DNA of 34,994 nucleotides from Bacillota bacterium (lineage in GTDB: Bacteria > Bacillota_I > Bacilli_A > Erysipelotrichales > Erysipelotrichaceae), in NCBI GenBank assembly GCA_029097145.1, contig JAQXNC010000037.1:1-34994 (forward strand), given 5' to 3'. Positions 6,903 through 28,147 of the stretch are shown here, one piece after another. The notes under the pieces were generated by a model. That model was not told where the DNA came from and did no database searches. It saw nothing but the letters and a program-made list of their open reading frames with translations. Positions within the stretch are counted from its first letter, which is position 1, and every line of letters starts with the position of its first letter. The translations under genes and the position numbers were made by a program.

Positions 6903-7841
6903 TTAATTAAAATATACCAGTTCATTTTCAGGTTTTAAAGACTCAACAATCTTATCAGCATATAATACACAGGTCTTATATCCATCTTCATCATCGATGG
7001 CATGAATTGTACCTTCGATAGAATAATAGGTATCTTCTTTGATTTCTTTTGTCTTAATTCCAATCACAGTTAAACCAATAGGTTGTATATCATCAGCACA
7101 GCATACCATGGCTTCTCTACCCATGATGCAGGCTGTATCATAACCTTTGATCTCTTCAAGATATTTAACTTTGATGCGAATCTTCTTATTTTCATATTTA
7201 TTAGGATTATCTCCGGCATCCATATACCATAAACCATAATTAAAATCACTGATATCAATAATATCCTGATTCAAATCAAACAGCTCAACATCATCAAATT
7301 CAACGACTTCATGATTATTATCTTCAAAAATCAGTTCAACTCTTGGGTTAATAGCCTTGATATTATTACGGATAAAAAGATAATCATCATCATTACCAAA
7401 ACGGTTAAAGATAGCACATTCAGTAATCGAGATATGATTGAATACGAATTGTTTAAGATTATTGATCTGCAGTTTAAACATTGACGCATCAACAGTTGTC
7501 AGAATCTGTGCAACTTCCCAATTAGGAATCAGACGCTCTTCGCTGAATAAAATTCTTTCATCTTCAATTCCATTGCATTCAATAAAGACACGCTCGAAAC
7601 TATACTTATTGTCTATTTCTACCATTTTTTCTCTTGTCAGTTTAGTGATTGAATCCATATAAATTACAAATGAATTAGTATCAGACAGAAACTTATCATC
7701 ATAGGTTTCTTCACCATCTTCAAAAGATAGAATCAGTGTTCTTTCACCTTCATTAAAACGTGGGTTATATAAAGTCTCCTTGATTAAAGAAGTCTTACCA
7801 CTATCTAATAGACCAGAAACAATATATAGCGGCTTAATCAT
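6903..7841 (-). CDS. CobW-like GTPase with a YcgQ/TIGR03943-like C-terminal domain
   Basis: This 312-residue G3E-family (CobW/COG0523-like) P-loop GTPase is divergent. The Walker A GLLDSGKT is at 10-17, and residues to about 160 follow the G3E fold (VFIECNGIED replaces the usual EPSGVG). It lacks the CxCC metal motif of true COG0523 metallochaperones. The C-terminal half (about 205-312) is not the usual CobW_C domain. Its GREAMVCCADDIQPIGLTV segment resembles the cysteine motif of YcgQ/TIGR03943 (DUF1980) proteins, which normally partner COG0701 permeases; this similarity is from memory and is an inference. The gene overlaps the His-rich COG0523 gene by 4 nt (ATGA), so the two are coupled and probably act together in metal delivery. 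Confidence 0.7.
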   Translation of the reverse strand: MIKPLYIVSGLLDSGKTSLIKETLYNPRFNEGERTLILSFEDGEETYDDKFLSDTNSFVIYMDSITKLTREKMVEIDNKYSFERVFIECNGIEDERILFSEERLIPNWEVAQILTTVDASMFKLQINNLKQFVFNHISITECAIFNRFGNDDDYLFIRNNIKAINPRVELIFEDNNHEVVEFDDVELFDLNQDIIDISDFNYGLWYMDAGDNPNKYENKKIRIKVKYLEEIKGYDTACIMGREAMVCCADDIQPIGLTVIGIKTKEIKEDTYYSIEGTIHAIDDEDGYKTCVLYADKIVESLKPENELVYFN

Positions 7842-8920
7842 AGTCTGAACAGTCCTTTAATATATTCTTCATTTAAATGTGAACCGATAACAGTTACAAG
7901 TCCAGTATATTTACTCTGACCATTGCGAATGATGATATCATCTCCCGCCAGATCAAAATAAAGCCATGAATCTGTACCTTTGACAAAACCTTTAGCGCGG
8001 ATTACATCACCCTTCAGCTTTTCTAGAATACTTCTTATTTCTTCTTCAGTATATGTCTTAACAGTCTCAAATCCAATATTTTCAAAGACTTCATCAGCGT
8101 CGTGATCATGGTGATGATGGTGATGATGTCCACATTCACATTCCTCATCATGATGATGTTCATGGTGACAATCACATTCTTCATCATCCTCATCGTGATG
8201 ATGTTCGTGGTGACAATCACATTCTTCATCATGGTGATGATGTTTGTGGTGATGGTGTTCACATTCACATTCCTCATCATGATGGTGTAAATGATGTTCA
8301 AGTTCATCTTCATCCATCATTTCCATACAGTTTCTGCATGTAACGTTTTCTTCAATGATATCCATGAGATAATCGTTATCAAGTTCCATATATGGTGTAG
8401 TGACTACTGTTGCATCTTCATTCATTTCTTTAAGCATCGCTACTACACCCTCTAGCTTTTCTTCACTTACAAGATCGGCTCTAGATAGAATGATTGAATT
8501 AGCTGCCACAACCTGATCATCAAAGAACTCTTTATAGTTCTTATGATAAATAACAGCTTTTTTGGCATCTACCATACAGATATGACCTTTGATTTCCATA
8601 TCTTCCATTTCTGATACAGTATCCATAATCTCGGATAGTTTACCAACACCTGATGGTTCAATTACCAGAGCGTCAATATCATAGCTTCTGATTTCATCTA
8701 AAGCAGCCTTTAAATCACCCTTTAAAGAACAACAGATACAGCCACTGTTAATCTCTTTAACTTTCAACCCTTCATCAAAGAGATTGCCATCAATACCAAC
8801 CTCACCAAATTCATTCTCCAGCAGCATTACTCTATTAAACTTGCCATCTTCAAGCAGTTTCTTGATTAATGTTGTTTTTCCAGAACCTAAGAATCCTGAA
8901 ATAATATATACTTTTATCAT
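7838..8920 (-). CDS. COG0523 (CobW-type) metallochaperone GTPase with His/Cys-rich insert
   Basis: This is a probable cytoplasmic metal-insertion GTPase, most likely for zinc, 360 residues. Walker A GFLGSGKT is at 9-16, the family metal-binding CICC motif is at 61-64, the EPSGVGK switch is at 88-94, and the guanine-specificity motif SRAD is near 146-149. CRNC at 195-198 may add ligands. Residues 209-274 are an insert almost entirely of His, Asp, Glu and Cys, with recurring HHHDEECxC blocks, a typical metal-storage or sensing loop but unusually long and cysteine-rich. A CobW_C-like domain follows to the end. A GGGAGG ribosome site precedes the ATG. Its neighbours, a second CobW-like GTPase and two small membrane proteins, suggest a metal-homeostasis block. 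The metal identity is inferred. Confidence 0.9.
   Translation of the reverse strand: MIKVYIISGFLGSGKTTLIKKLLEDGKFNRVMLLENEFGEVGIDGNLFDEGLKVKEINSGCICCSLKGDLKAALDEIRSYDIDALVIEPSGVGKLSEIMDTVSEMEDMEIKGHICMVDAKKAVIYHKNYKEFFDDQVVAANSIILSRADLVSEEKLEGVVAMLKEMNEDATVVTTPYMELDNDYLMDIIEENVTCRNCMEMMDEDELEHHLHHHDEECECEHHHHKHHHHDEECDCHHEHHHDEDDEECDCHHEHHHDEECECGHHHHHHHDHDADEVFENIGFETVKTYTEEEIRSILEKLKGDVIRAKGFVKGTDSWLYFDLAGDDIIIRNGQSKYTGLVTVIGSHLNEEYIKGLFRL
8099..8296 (-). repeat. In-frame His/Cys-rich repeat region of the COG0523 gene
   Basis: About 200 bp of reiterated CAT/CAC, GAT/GAA and TGT/TGC codons encode residues 209-274. Near-identical blocks of the HHHDEECxCHHEH type repeat four to five times with small insertions. 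The same bases give low-complexity Met/Ile/Val-rich shadow frames on both strands that are not genes. Such a tract is prone to slippage, so its length may vary between strains. Confidence 0.85.
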
Positions 8921-17234: not shown

Positions 17235-19286
17235 TCATCCTTCATTTATATTAAAGATTAGTATAGCTTTAAACAGGTCGCCATCAGTTTCAATCTTAAA
17301 GCCAACATTCATCGCTTCAGTAAAGCTTTGAACAATCGCCAGTCCAATACCGCTGCCACTTTCACTTCTTGATTTATCTCCACGTTTAAATCTTTCAATG
17401 ATTTCTTCAGGAGTAAAGTTCATTTCTGATTTGGAAATATTCTTAAATGTTACGACAAGCTGATCAGCTATCCGATTGATATCGATATAGACACGGGTAT
17501 TATTAAGTGAGTATTTGACAATGTTATTTAAGAGATTATCAAATATGCGATATGTCTTATCAGAATCAAGATAACATATAGCCTTTTCAGAAGAACTGTT
17601 GAAGACAAGTTCCAGATTATTATCTCTTAAATCATCTTCTCTTTCTGATATCACCTGTCTTATCAGTTCAATCACATCAAGATTGAGCATATCAAGTTCA
17701 ATATTACCACTGTTTGCCTTTGAGATTTCAAACAGGTCTTCAATAAGACTCTCAAGTCTTGATGAGTATTTATCAAGCATTTTAAGATACTCCTGACGTT
17801 TTATTGGATCAAGATTTTCATCATTTAACAGTTCAGTATAATTTCTGATACCGGTAAGTGGTGTTTTAAGGTCATGCGAGACATTTGAAATAAGTTCTGT
17901 CTTCATTGACTGTGAAGCTGTTTCTTCTCTGATTGCTTCCTTAAAACCTGTTTCAATACTTGACAGTTCATTCTTAAGTGGATCAAAGATTCCCATATCT
18001 TCATTCAGATTATCAAAATCACCCTTGGCAACTCTTGATGCATAATTCAGAATTTTCTGATAATCATTTTCAATAACTTTATATCTGTCGTATACCAAAA
18101 GAGCAATAACCAATACATAAGCTACACCAAAGATAGCACCAAATCCTGGAATAATACCGATAATCACAACAATAACCAGATTGACAATAAAGATAATCAG
18201 CATCTTTCTGATATTATTGTCTTCAAAATCAATATCATAGAGTCGATTGAAGAATCCCTTAATCTTTCTGATACATAAAGCTATTAATGTATCTTCTTTT
18301 AAGAAGCGTCCAAAACCTCCAGTAAACATATATTTCAAATAGTAGATATCAGCTACTACAGTAAGCATAAATAGACCATATACAAGATAATTAATCACGA
18401 AGATTATCTCATTGTCATAACCCGTAAATCCTAAGGCATTGATAATTCCATAGAATTCCTTATCAATTGTAATCTTCATTATTAATAAACATCCAGCGCC
18501 CAAAAGAGTACTCATGGCAGTTAAAACAGTGATAGTCAGTTCAGCTTTGGTATCAGAACATATCTTAAATGGATTAATCTCTCTTAGATATCTGACTGGA
18601 TAGAAAAGGCCAAATATTAAGGCTATTCCTGCAATAATCATCATCGAAATAACGATATAAGTACTATCAAACGACGAAGCTAAAGCTGCCCCAAGTCTTG
18701 AATCCCAGCTGCGATACACTCCTTCATTGATGCTGTATTCAAAGTGATAGTCACTAGGGAAGTTAAGTTTTACTTCAACATTCTCATCTGCAATGATATT
18801 TTTAGATATTTCAGCACTTTCTTTGATATCTTCATTCATATAGTAAAGGATATCATAATAAAGCTGACCTTCCTTTTCATAAAAGCCACCACTATCAGCT
18901 TCAATCACTCCATAAAACAGTGATCCTTCCTTATTGACATTACCATATGATTCAATTATTTCATTACCTTTATATACTCTGTAATTGAAGTTTTCATCTT
19001 CAAGCAGATAGTTATAGTTATTTACTGGTCTTCTGACAATTACGTTATTAACTCTGTCAAGAGTTTCAGAATCCAGCTCTCCATCGATTGTGATAATTTG
19101 GTATTCTGGATTACTTGAGATAATCCTGTCATACATCAACTCTGCAATGTCATCACTGGCAGTATAACTCATATCACGTGACTGTAATTCACTCAGATAT
19201 ATTACATCATATTTATCATATAGTGTCGCTGTTGTGATTAGTGATAATAATATAAACAGCGTAAAGAATATAAGTTTCTTCTTCAT
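17235..19286 (-). CDS. Sensor histidine kinase with multi-helix membrane region
   Basis: This 683-residue membrane kinase is paired with the response regulator upstream. Helix 1 is at about 5-22 and an extracellular sensor domain of about 185 residues covers 25-208. Membrane helices follow near 209-229, 250-271, 292-316 and 362-398 (two). A HAMP-like linker (about 400-455) leads to HisKA with SNVSHDLKTPLTG (phospho-acceptor His471). The ATPase domain has its N box at DNLLNNIVKYS (583-593) and a G2 box GSGIGLAI (644-651). The G1 region reads NISKSE rather than DxGxG, as in several Bacillota kinases. The signal is unknown. It starts 2 nt after the regulator stop. Confidence 0.92.
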   Translation of the reverse strand: MKKKLIFFTLFILLSLITTATLYDKYDVIYLSELQSRDMSYTASDDIAELMYDRIISSNPEYQIITIDGELDSETLDRVNNVIVRRPVNNYNYLLEDENFNYRVYKGNEIIESYGNVNKEGSLFYGVIEADSGGFYEKEGQLYYDILYYMNEDIKESAEISKNIIADENVEVKLNFPSDYHFEYSINEGVYRSWDSRLGAALASSFDSTYIVISMMIIAGIALIFGLFYPVRYLREINPFKICSDTKAELTITVLTAMSTLLGAGCLLIMKITIDKEFYGIINALGFTGYDNEIIFVINYLVYGLFMLTVVADIYYLKYMFTGGFGRFLKEDTLIALCIRKIKGFFNRLYDIDFEDNNIRKMLIIFIVNLVIVVIIGIIPGFGAIFGVAYVLVIALLVYDRYKVIENDYQKILNYASRVAKGDFDNLNEDMGIFDPLKNELSSIETGFKEAIREETASQSMKTELISNVSHDLKTPLTGIRNYTELLNDENLDPIKRQEYLKMLDKYSSRLESLIEDLFEISKANSGNIELDMLNLDVIELIRQVISEREDDLRDNNLELVFNSSSEKAICYLDSDKTYRIFDNLLNNIVKYSLNNTRVYIDINRIADQLVVTFKNISKSEMNFTPEEIIERFKRGDKSRSESGSGIGLAIVQSFTEAMNVGFKIETDGDLFKAILIFNINEG

Positions 19287-19288
19287 AA

Positions 19289-19993
19289 TTATCTTTTTTC
19301 TATCTTATAACCAAGACCCCAGACAACCTTAAGATACTTAGGTCTTTTTGGATCGATTTCAATTTTCTCTCTCAGTTTTCTGATATGAACCATGATTGTT
19401 TCGGTATTAATCGCTTCTTCCTTCCAGATTCTTTCATATATCTCTTCTGAAGAGAAAACACGATTGGGATAACTCATCAGCAGTTCAAGGATACTGAATT
19501 CCTTAGGAGTCATTTTAATATACTTTCCATCAACACTGACTTCCTTGCTGGTCTTATTAAGTGAAATACCGCCTATTTCAATAATATCCTGACTGACTTC
19601 TTCCTTAGAACCTTTAAGTCTTAAGATCTGTTCATATCTTCTGATATGTGATCCCACACGGGCTATCAGTTCAATTGACTTAAATGGTTTGGTCATATAA
19701 TCATCAGCTCCAATATTGAGTCCACTGATCTTATCGATGTCTTCAGATTTGGCACTTAAAAAGATAATTGGAAAATCATAATTTTCCCTGATTTTCAATG
19801 TCATTTCCATTCCATCCATAACCGGCATCATAATATCAACAATTGCCAAATGAATATCATTATTTAAGACAATATCAAGTCCCTCAGCACCATTAAAAGC
19901 CTGATATACCTGATATCCCTGATTTCTCAAATAAATCGCAATCGCATCATTAATGCCTCTTTCATCTTCAACAACCAGTACCTTATGTTCCAT
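19289..19993 (-). CDS. OmpR/PhoB-family response regulator
   Basis: This is a 234-residue transcription factor. The receiver domain has the acidic pocket Glu9-Asp10, phospho-acceptor Asp53 in VDIMMPVMDG, the Ser in FLSAKSE (about 80) and Lys102 in TKPF. A winged-helix DNA-binding domain (about 135-232) has the TPKEFSILELLMSYPNRVFSSEEIYERIW and TIMVHIRKLREKI helices and the WGLGYKIE wing. The AAGGGA ribosome site lies inside the final codons of the small membrane ORF that stops 2 nt upstream, so its translation is probably coupled to that ORF. It sits with its kinase partner and likely binds the repeats at 20188-20228. Confidence 0.95.
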   Translation of the reverse strand: MEHKVLVVEDERGINDAIAIYLRNQGYQVYQAFNGAEGLDIVLNNDIHLAIVDIMMPVMDGMEMTLKIRENYDFPIIFLSAKSEDIDKISGLNIGADDYMTKPFKSIELIARVGSHIRRYEQILRLKGSKEEVSQDIIEIGGISLNKTSKEVSVDGKYIKMTPKEFSILELLMSYPNRVFSSEEIYERIWKEEAINTETIMVHIRKLREKIEIDPKRPKYLKVVWGLGYKIEKR

Positions 19994-19995
19994 AT

Positions 19996-20070
19996 TTATC
20001 CCTTTATACTACGATAGTAAAATGTCATGATCAGACATACAATAACAATCCCAACCGTTTCCATAATCAT
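19996..20070 (-). CDS. Micro-ORF 2: 24-residue putative membrane peptide upstream of the response regulator
   Basis: This short frame encodes MIMETVGIVIVCLIMTFYYR followed by SIKG and a TAA. It has one strongly hydrophobic helix (about 6-17) and a basic C-terminal tail, the shape of a single-pass membrane micropeptide (KdpF-sized). A second in-frame ATG at 20064 would give 22 residues. No SD precedes it, but it begins 13 nt after micro-ORF 1 stops, so reinitiation or coupling is plausible. Its last codons contain the SD of the response regulator, whose ATG follows 2 nt after the stop. The function is unknown; a regulator of the adjacent kinase is one possibility. Expression is unproven. Confidence 0.5.
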   Translation of the reverse strand: MIMETVGIVIVCLIMTFYYRSIKG

Positions 20071-20083
20071 TCATTTACTGTAT

Positions 20084-20152
20084 TTAGAATATCATTACAA
20101 TCAGTATCAGTGCAATTATTGCGGCAGATATTAGAAATACAGAATCTCTCAT
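20084..20152 (-). CDS. Micro-ORF 1: 22-residue putative membrane peptide with a strong SD
   Basis: The frame ATG-AGA-GAT-TCT encodes MRDSVFLISAAIIALILIVM followed by IF and a stop. It is one hydrophobic helix after a short charged N-terminus. An AAGGAGGG site lies immediately upstream, one of the strongest SD sites in the window, which is hard to explain unless this peptide is translated. It is the first frame of the two-component transcription unit, followed by micro-ORF 2, the response regulator and the kinase. I recognise no family. It could be a small membrane regulator of the kinase or a leader controlling downstream translation. The evidence is architectural only. Confidence 0.55.
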   Translation of the reverse strand: MRDSVFLISAAIIALILIVMIF

Positions 20153-20172
20153 TTACCCTCCTTGTATCTAAT

Positions 20173-20228
20173 ATTCTAAAGGGTAAATCTTAAGATAACC
20201 TGAATCCAAATCTTAAATAATTCTTAAA
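20173..20228 (-). promoter_or_regulatory. Control region of the two-component operon: direct repeats and -10
   Basis: Three TCTTAA(A/G) heptamers (plus-strand coordinates 20188-20194, 20211-20217 and 20222-20228) lie upstream of a TAGAAT -10 candidate (20178-20173 on the minus strand). The last two are exactly 11 bp apart, the helical spacing typical of OmpR/PhoB-type sites. The copy at 20188 is the centre of a near-palindrome. No good -35 is present, which fits activation by the encoded regulator (inference). Confidence 0.45.
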
Positions 20229-20229
20229 T

Positions 20230-20261
20230 ATAATTAATGGCATGATTAACACCATGCCATT
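20230..20261 (-). terminator. Terminator after the DUF349 gene
   Basis: A perfect 9-bp stem AATGGCATG (20236-20244) / CATGCCATT (20253-20261) with an 8-nt loop lies 4 nt beyond the DUF349 stop. The following minus-strand bases are AT-rich (AATTATATTT) rather than a pure T-run, so strength is uncertain. Confidence 0.7.
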
Positions 20262-26425: not shown

Positions 26426-26801
26426 ATAATGCCTTGATTCGTCTTTCAATTTCTTTAATTACTTCTTTGAATGTTTCATCACTCATGCCACTTGGGTCAA
26501 TCAGACCCCAATCATCATCAAATGAGCGACTGAGTATAGGACAGCTGACATTACAGCCCATCGAAATTAATATATCACATTCAGGTATTTGATCTATCAG
26601 TTTCGGATATTGACCCATGGCTTCCATATCAACACCATAAAGTTCCTTCATTATTCTTAAGGCATCTTCATTAATCCTATCTTTAGTCATCGATCCAGCT
26701 GAATAACATTCGTATTTATCCTTAAGATATATTCTTCCTAAAGCTTCAGCCATCTGAGAACGACATGAATTATGTACGCAGATAAAGGCAATCTTCTTCA
26801 T
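26424..26801 (-). CDS. arsC: Arsenate reductase, thioredoxin-coupled LMW-phosphatase type
   Basis: This 125-residue enzyme reduces arsenate to arsenite. The low-molecular-weight phosphatase loop CVHNSCRSQ begins at Cys8 (nucleophile) with Arg14. The redox pair Cys83 and Cys87 in SMGCNVSCP matches the thioredoxin-linked family in which the disulfide is passed out of the active site. The DPSGMSDETF segment with the catalytic Asp is near the end. It is the last gene of the arsenic operon and overlaps the thioredoxin-like gene by one base, its probable electron donor. Confidence 0.93.
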   Translation of the reverse strand: MKKIAFICVHNSCRSQMAEALGRIYLKDKYECYSAGSMTKDRINEDALRIMKELYGVDMEAMGQYPKLIDQIPECDILISMGCNVSCPILSRSFDDDWGLIDPSGMSDETFKEVIKEIERRIKAL

Positions 26802-27142
26802 CAGGCTTTATAACCTTCAATCAGTTTCAAAACTTCATCAGCGCTTAATACACGACCCATTGATACAACCTTCTCATTGATTACAACCGCTGGCATACTC
26901 ATGACACCATAGTTCATGACAATCTGCATATCAGTAATATATTCAACAACGACTTCTCTTGTCGATTTCAAAGCTGCACTTTTAGTATTTTCATAGAGTT
27001 CATGGCACTTTTTACATCCTGCACCCAACACTTTAACACTTAGTTTTTCACCATGACACTCACTTTTAACTGGTTCAACTTCCACAAAGCTGCAGTTACA
27101 TTCTAATGGTTTATCACCCTTTTTAAATAGATTCATATTCAT
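26801..27142 (-). CDS. Thioredoxin-like small protein (redox-active disulfide protein 2 family)
   Basis: This is a 113-residue single-domain thioredoxin fold of the TM0996/MTH895 type. The active site is GAGCKKCHEL (Cys43, Cys46), with the cis-Pro loop GVMSMPAVVINEKVVSMGRVLS and a final helix. The N-terminal 30 residues add CNC (15-17) and Cys29, extra thiols not usual for the family and possibly metalloid ligands. The ATG has an AAGGAG site. It sits between the COG0701 permease and arsC, a combination common in arsenic operons, so it probably reduces ArsC or the permease cargo (inference). Confidence 0.87.
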   Translation of the reverse strand: MNMNLFKKGDKPLECNCSFVEVEPVKSECHGEKLSVKVLGAGCKKCHELYENTKSAALKSTREVVVEYITDMQIVMNYGVMSMPAVVINEKVVSMGRVLSADEVLKLIEGYKA

Positions 27143-27151
27143 TTTTCTCCT

Positions 27152-28147
27152 TTATAAAATAATATATTCCAAGGCATTGAAAATATATCCAACACCAATA
27201 ATACCTAAGGTACAGATTAAGATAAATATCAAAAGCAGTTTAGGTTTAATGGCTTTTTTAAGCATTATCATCGATGGAAGACTTAAGGTCGTTACAGCCA
27301 TCATAAATGATAATACTACTCCCAGTCTGGCTCCCTTGGCCAGTAAAGCTTCTGCAATTGGTATGCAACCAAAAATATCGGCATACATTGGAATACCGGC
27401 AAGTGTCGCAATAAATACCCCTAATGGATTACCATTACCAAGGAAGCTGATAATCAGATTTTCAGGAATATAGTTATGAATAAAGGCTCCAATCATTACT
27501 CCAAGTAACATACATGGTAAGACCTTCTTATATGTTGAAGACACAGCTTCAAAGGCATATTTAATACGTGTCCTGATATCTATTTCATCTTCATCAAGAT
27601 CTATCGCTTTAGCTTTATATATGAATTCCTCAACCTCACTTTCAAGGTGCATCTTTTCTATCATACTGCCACCTAAAACAGCTATCACAAGACCTAATAC
27701 AACATATATCAAAGCTATTCTAGCCCCAAAGATGCTCATCAGTAAGACTAACGAACCAAGATCGACCATTGGTGATGAAATCAGAAAACTGAAGGTTACT
27801 CCAAGTGGCAGACCAGCACTGGTAAATCCTATAAAGAGTGGTATAGATGAACATGAACAGAATGGTGTAACCGTTCCAAGTAAAGCTGCAATGACATTGG
27901 CAGTTAGTCCATGAAAGTTCCTGATTATTCGCTTAGACTTTTCAGCACTGAAATAACTCTGTATATAACTGATAATAAAGATTAATGTACAAAGTAATAT
28001 CGATATCTTAATCACATCATAGATAAAGAATTGTAATGATGCCCCAAAACGATTATCTAAATCAAGCCCCATTCCCATCAGTAAATTACCAATGAGTCGA
28101 CTCAGCCACTTCATACCCAGAATCTCTTTTTCAATAAACGACCACAT
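27152..28147 (-). CDS. COG0701 permease (ArsP/YraQ-like), probable arsenical efflux
   Basis: This 331-residue integral membrane protein has about eight to ten helices and belongs to the predicted permease family COG0701 (DUF318). The diagnostic TPFCSCSSIPLFIGF segment with two cysteines is followed by GLPLGVTFSFLISSPMVDLGSLVLL. A second repeat carries AGIPMYADIFGCIPIAEALLAKG and a SLPSMIMLKKA end. A cytoplasmic loop (about 165-210) is highly charged. Members include ArsP exporters of trivalent organoarsenicals and thiol-linked permeases. No Acr3 or ArsB is present, so this is the only candidate exporter of the operon. It starts 3 nt after the arsR stop. Confidence 0.85.
   Translation of the reverse strand: MWSFIEKEILGMKWLSRLIGNLLMGMGLDLDNRFGASLQFFIYDVIKISILLCTLIFIISYIQSYFSAEKSKRIIRNFHGLTANVIAALLGTVTPFCSCSSIPLFIGFTSAGLPLGVTFSFLISSPMVDLGSLVLLMSIFGARIALIYVVLGLVIAVLGGSMIEKMHLESEVEEFIYKAKAIDLDEDEIDIRTRIKYAFEAVSSTYKKVLPCMLLGVMIGAFIHNYIPENLIISFLGNGNPLGVFIATLAGIPMYADIFGCIPIAEALLAKGARLGVVLSFMMAVTTLSLPSMIMLKKAIKPKLLLIFILICTLGIIGVGYIFNALEYIIL

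Follow-up and report, generated by a model that had tools for sequence, protein, structure and literature searches.

Small membrane proteins that are tied to two-component systems (TCS) are already known as a kind, and those that regulate kinases are best documented in enteric bacteria. The PhoQ inhibitor MgrB (47 aa) is regulated by PhoP, contacts PhoQ through its helix and closes a feedback loop (PMC8534201, PMC8404706), and SafA and UgtL are small membrane activators of the same kinase (PMC8534201). Firmicutes have their own pairs of kinase and partner in LiaF-LiaS and WalH/WalI/SpdC-WalK (PMC8541618, PMC8534201); WalK is controlled through its transmembrane (TM) helices by WalH/WalI and SpdC, the latter being itself under WalKR control (PMC8534201).

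The locus described here lies in a 34,994-nt stretch of DNA (hereafter the window), which is one entire contig of a 1.65 Mb genome (134 contigs, 87% complete) from the order Erysipelotrichales. It probably contains two unannotated genes for tiny (22–24 aa) membrane peptides that head a self-regulated sensor operon. Like MgrB, these would be small single-helix membrane proteins with expression governed by their kinase's regulator and a similar feedback logic, but MgrB is longer, is encoded by a gene of its own apart from the TCS operon, carries cysteines on the periplasmic side and belongs to enteric bacteria. With SafA and UgtL they would share the action of a small membrane protein on a kinase, although both of those are longer and act via periplasmic segments, which the window peptides do not have, and SafA is induced by another TCS. 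LiaF, WalH/WalI and SpdC are likewise membrane partners of a kinase but are much larger proteins. Scans against Pfam and NCBIfam, whose models are weak for 22-residue queries, assigned neither peptide to any family, in agreement with a preliminary description of this DNA that had considered the peptides unrelated in sequence to MgrB and SafA; we do not claim membership of either family, and the likeness is one of analogy. Peptides of this sort were not described for this operon in the open-access literature searched. The novelty lies in a lead slot that occurs across the lineage within a TCS operon and can be recognised by measuring the operator spacing, and in the peptides that occupy it.

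Layout of the locus and its two micro-ORFs

Between the stop codon of a DUF349 gene (20266) and the ATG of the response regulator (RR; 19993) there are 272 bp, with two short frames inside, all read on the minus strand. The features of the locus are as follows.

20236..20261, minus strand: terminator-like hairpin of the intrinsic type, AATGGCATGGTGTTAATCATGCCATT plus a T-rich tail, closing the upstream DUF349 gene
20208..20227, minus strand: putative direct-repeat operator TTAAGAATTATTTAAGATTT with an 11-bp period, a motif common to the orthologous operons
about 20193–20185, minus strand: possible third half-site TTAAGATTT, just downstream of the operator
20173..20178, minus strand: putative −10 element TAGAAT, from reading of the sequence
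20084..20152, minus strand: micro-ORF1 (ORF1), 22 aa, single helix, MRDSVFLISAAIIALILIVMIF, read as the first gene of the operon
19996..20070, minus strand: micro-ORF2 (ORF2), 24 aa, single helix, MIMETVGIVIVCLIMTFYYRSIKG, with no Shine-Dalgarno (SD) site of its own
19289..19993, minus strand: response regulator of the OmpR/VanR type, 234 aa, PF00072 and PF00486
17235..19286, minus strand: sensor histidine kinase, 683 aa, with TM1, an extracellular domain, five TMs, HisKA and HATPase

The two consecutive hydrophobic single-helix frames of 22 and 24 codons that the preliminary description had reported were indeed found (20152 to 20084 and 20070 to 19996), as was the gene order of peptide, peptide, regulator and kinase. 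The strong SD that it had attributed to ORF1 is AAGGAGGG, with an anti-SD duplex of −11.7 kcal/mol. ORF2, which could alternatively start at an internal ATG at 20064 (giving 22 aa, with an anti-SD duplex of −0.8 kcal/mol), begins 13 nt after the stop of ORF1. It ends, as had been noted, 2 nt before the RR ATG, with the moderate RR SD AAAGGGAT (−5.3 kcal/mol) within its last codons. Hydropathy over 17 residues is 3.3 for ORF1 and 1.9 for ORF2, and both, at less than 70 aa, fit one TM helix that would insert into the membrane; the charges of the N-terminal flanks are 0 and −1, respectively. In dinucleotide shuffles, the probability of an ORF1-like frame (start 45–65 nt past the operator, SD and membrane helix) was p = 0.00025; for a hydrophobic frame like ORF2, with its end at the RR, it was p = 0.005. 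The case for coding, which had been proposed for both frames, is strong for ORF1 and moderate for ORF2, and we consider ORF1 very probably and ORF2 probably a real coding gene.

A different use of these frames would be as leader ORFs, with their translation serving the coupling or attenuation of the RR and the peptides being by-products. The tight intervals, the location of the RR SD inside ORF2 and its moderate strength suit that idea, which we nevertheless judge improbable. The leader RNA has no Rfam match and is less folded than its shuffles (z = +1.6), so that an RNA leader was rejected, and most of the orthologous operons lack such a leader. Further evidence on this point comes from the relatives (see below).

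One terminator-like hairpin was found behind DUF349 versus 0.3 expected. The operator at 20227–20208 and the putative −10 element at 20178–20173 support a promoter region upstream of ORF1, and we infer a transcription start at about 20166. Elsewhere in the window, there are two adjacent CobW-family GTPases (6903–8920, minus strand), one of which (6903–7841) is fused to a DUF1980 C-terminal domain, and a thioredoxin-like 113-aa protein that adjoins an ArsP-type permease (26801–28147, minus strand).

The curated NCBIfam models nearest to the RR are those of VanR (E 9e-79), but its score against vanR_ACDEGLN (264 bits) is under the cut-off of 350, and the kinase likewise scores 141 bits against VanS (cut-off 400). 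Despite the resemblance to VanRS, the window kinase differs in its large extracellular domain and its six predicted helices, and no resistance genes were seen in the operon. About 185 extracellular residues separate the N-terminal helix from the other five, which correspond to the five-helix membrane region of the preliminary description with TM1 as an addition. The extracellular domain (18669–19205, minus strand) has a predicted alpha/beta fold, for which Foldseek returned nothing significant and the top rows of VIA-align (with Z of 2.4–2.9, too weak for any use) were mainly two-component and PhoQ sensor domains; a structure search with the whole kinase matched the catalytic core only. RR orthologs with 58–72% identity are found across the order; Lachnospiraceae and other Clostridia contribute a small number, and a kinase of the window's architecture follows nearly all of them.

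Operator spacing and the first gene of the transcript

A 22-position operator motif, trained on the 320 bases preceding each of 96 RR orthologs, proved to be a direct repeat, TTTAGAAATTC TTTAGAATT, with an 11-bp period, which precedes the VanR-like operon across the order and resembles OmpR-family binding sites in form. Of the 50 RR-led loci in which an operator was detected, 41 have the motif ending 49–65 nt ahead of that gene's ATG. In the 14 loci that are led by a membrane micro-ORF or a small two-helix ORF, the same spacing separates the operator from the ATG of the lead ORF in 12 cases, and measurement to the RR instead gives it in none (0/14). The window belongs to this pattern, with the motif ending 53 nt before the ATG of ORF1. 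Where a VTT-domain gene (TVP38/TMEM64, PF09335) heads the operon, the operator ends 49–59 nt before the VTT start in 15 of 15 loci; these operators lie about 670–790 nt upstream of the RR, outside the regions on which the motif was trained, and therefore provide an independent check of the spacing.

Because hydrophobicity and SD strength play no part in this rule, it argues independently for a transcript that begins upstream of ORF1 and has ORF1 as its first gene. Operator-to-first-ATG spacing is the strongest evidence that the micro-ORFs are likely genes. The operator consensus pattern, allowing one mismatch at most, has a single site in the whole window genome, so that, TCS genes aside, only the micropeptide genes are clearly under the operator. 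A wider regulon was rejected, since the counts of the pattern in 20 genomes were close to those of a reversed-pattern control.

Lead-slot proteins among the relatives

We defined membrane micro-ORFs as having an ATG, an SD duplex of −5.5 kcal/mol or stronger, 14–80 codons and one hydrophobic stretch, and as not being the tail of a larger ORF. By these criteria, which were fixed after the window had been seen and were applied identically to shuffles and controls, a membrane micro-ORF precedes the RR at 18 of the 96 ortholog loci versus 0.35 expected from shuffles of the same regions, and at none of 89 other OmpR-type regulators (Fisher p = 4e-6). Candidates of 31–36 residues at L032, L038, L044, L046 and L047 were dropped as C-terminal ends of VTT genes. 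The other 78 operons carry no micropeptide so defined, and the kinase therefore does not generally need one. On the RR tree, presence and absence must have switched at least eight times, so that the feature recurs through repeated gain, loss or both, and the micro-ORF loci are not all independent. Among the peptides is a 29-residue lead peptide of the cultured Faecalibacillus intestinalis (G038, locus L012).

Five close pairs of relatives' peptides show 24 synonymous changes per 77 sites versus 32 nonsynonymous changes per 316 (p = 1e-5), and these peptides are under purifying selection. The pair L151/L154 has six synonymous and no nonsynonymous differences, the 23 residues being identical, while the Faecalibacillus pairs say little by themselves because the entire upstream region is conserved there. 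Only two of the nine genomes in the window's genus have good RR orthologs; the window's own frames thus have no close relatives, and selection is demonstrated on the relatives' peptides only.

Locus L004 (G007:C30), from a genome of the same genus, is the sister of the window RR on the tree (aLRT 90). Its kinase has the multi-helix block but no extracellular sensor domain, and its operon still has a micropeptide, a hydrophobic one of 22 residues that ends 9 nt before the RR. Compared over the 22 residues from the relevant ATG, ORF2 resembles this equal-length peptide (MFIIGLILLMWIVISYYRESKD) with p = 0.00025 against shuffles preserving helix and tail composition, and the L004 peptide in G007 is probably the one ortholog of ORF2; none was found among the relatives for ORF1. 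Membrane micro-ORFs do recur upstream of homologous kinases, but the exact twin pair is not conserved, with a probable ortholog for ORF2 only. Nine of the relatives' peptides nearest the RR defined a class A (GF..H), in which a Gly and a His at the end of the helix never vary (GFYIHYQK, GFLLHRNI, GAIVHSDQ). A profile search for this class in 272 family genomes gave 11 strong loci, every one at this operon and none in the window genome (G000). ORF2, which has ..TFYYR.. and lacks both invariant residues, was rejected as a member. Given this diversity of sequence, several unrelated families may be lumped together under the micropeptides.

The size and hydrophobicity of the peptides recall streptococcal short hydrophobic peptides, and a peptide-led autoregulated operon would suit autoinduction, if the peptides were exported and cleaved and their C-terminal part were sensed by the extracellular domain of the kinase. 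This origin as pheromone precursors is nonetheless very unlikely. The N-termini of ORF1 and ORF2 are not Lys-rich; those of most relatives' peptides are acidic or neutral, with several having a charge that favours N-out/C-in. The operon has no processing or export gene, and L004 keeps its peptide with a kinase that has no extracellular domain to sense it. The neighbours of the micro-ORFs are the RR, the kinase, DUF349 and a flavin reductase, and no gene for an Rgg-type receptor is found beside them.

The lead slot may be empty, leaving the RR alone, or hold a VTT protein, single-helix peptides or, at particular loci, other combinations: a small two-helix protein and then a peptide at L034, and VTT plus a micro-ORF at L042, L043, L052 and L136. 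The DedA-like VTT proteins head the operon at L032, L042–L047, L052, L136, L145, L178–L180 and others; given the operator before them, the TCS probably controls the VTT protein in many relatives. The Faecalibacillus family often has two operators, one before VTT and another before the RR. At L050, the lead ORF (−308..−53 relative to the RR ATG) is a truncated VTT gene, and at L041 the slot holds an apparently frameshifted one (−650..−554); both are apparently cases of VTT decay in progress. In seven further loci (L003, L176, L177, L139, L155, L033 and L056), the operator is 79–107 nt from the RR with no clear ORF between, and these are possible cases of lost micro-ORFs. L003 retains a strong SD (AAAGGAGG) followed by ATG GTA TAA, as if a peptide had been lost there. 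The short lead ORFs at L031 (17 aa) and L035 (19 aa), each with an SD, are not hydrophobic; all stand-alone lead ORFs of at least 20 aa with an SD at operator spacing are. Judged from these comparisons of sequence, what is conserved is not the twin pair but a leading position in the operon, taken either by membrane peptides of various kinds or by a VTT-domain protein.

The hydrophobicity of these longer lead ORFs, the presence of VTT proteins in the same slot and the purifying selection on amino acids of the relatives' peptides all argue against leader ORFs whose products do not matter. Translational coupling had been one of the roles suggested at the outset: its geometry fits, but coupling alone probably does not explain everything, since nearly all occupants of the slot are membrane proteins.

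The shared slot and spacing, together with the truncated and frameshifted VTT genes, might also suggest that a VTT gene underwent an internal deletion and survives at its two ends as ORF1 and ORF2. On average, ORF1 is weakly similar to VTT N-ends (p = 0.025), but in the same kind of shuffle test its best match was unremarkable (p = 0.85), as was that of ORF2 to VTT C-ends (p = 0.93 for the best match and 0.73 for the mean), so that a remnant origin found no support. With a strong SD and a helix retained, and with VTT and a micro-ORF standing side by side at other loci, such descent appears most improbable.

Possible roles of the peptides

The likeliest role of the two peptides is feedback on the kinase, and we give an even chance to the reading that both frames are genuine small membrane-protein genes that lead an autoregulated operon and act in this way. 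In the order operator, ORF1, ORF2, response regulator and kinase, the VanR-like regulator would bind the direct-repeat operator and drive the entire transcript, peptides included. ORF1 would be translated from its strong SD, ORF2 through reinitiation after ORF1, and the regulator from the SD inside ORF2. Each peptide would insert as one membrane helix, and the two might contact the six-helix membrane domain of the kinase helix-to-helix, providing feedback, of either sign, as MgrB does with PhoQ. Whether the peptides do modulate the kinase is evenly poised; the kinase is taken as their target because of gene order only.

A close second is a role on the envelope: a lead membrane protein induced by the regulator would act on the envelope, whose state the kinase would sense. 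Responses to envelope stress are a task of VanR-type regulators, the VTT-domain gene occupies the slot of the peptides at 15 loci with the same operator spacing, and no VTT gene was found in the window genome (87% complete). A 22-residue helix cannot be a transporter, however, and the coexistence of VTT and a micro-ORF at four loci means that neither simply replaces the other. We regard an effector role as possible but on the unlikely side.

Returning to feedback on the kinase, the varied membrane proteins of the lead slot suggest a little-known class of sensor partners. Tentatively, and with some doubt, the slot might be viewed as a modular position at which bacteria of this order swap TCS-induced membrane partners, be it a VTT/DedA-like protein, a small protein with two helices or single-helix peptides of 17–41 residues, all acting on the same six-helix kinase. 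A single type of kinase accompanied by a peptide, a VTT protein, both or neither amounts to a natural experiment. Genes of 17–30 codons are normally missed by gene callers, and the operator provides a landmark, beyond hydrophobicity alone, that singles out such genes in Gram-positive bacteria. The outcome is a concrete list of peptide–kinase pairs, including that of F. intestinalis. If the slot is indeed modular, the micropeptides would constitute, for Bacillota, a new class of kinase modulators that extends across the lineage.
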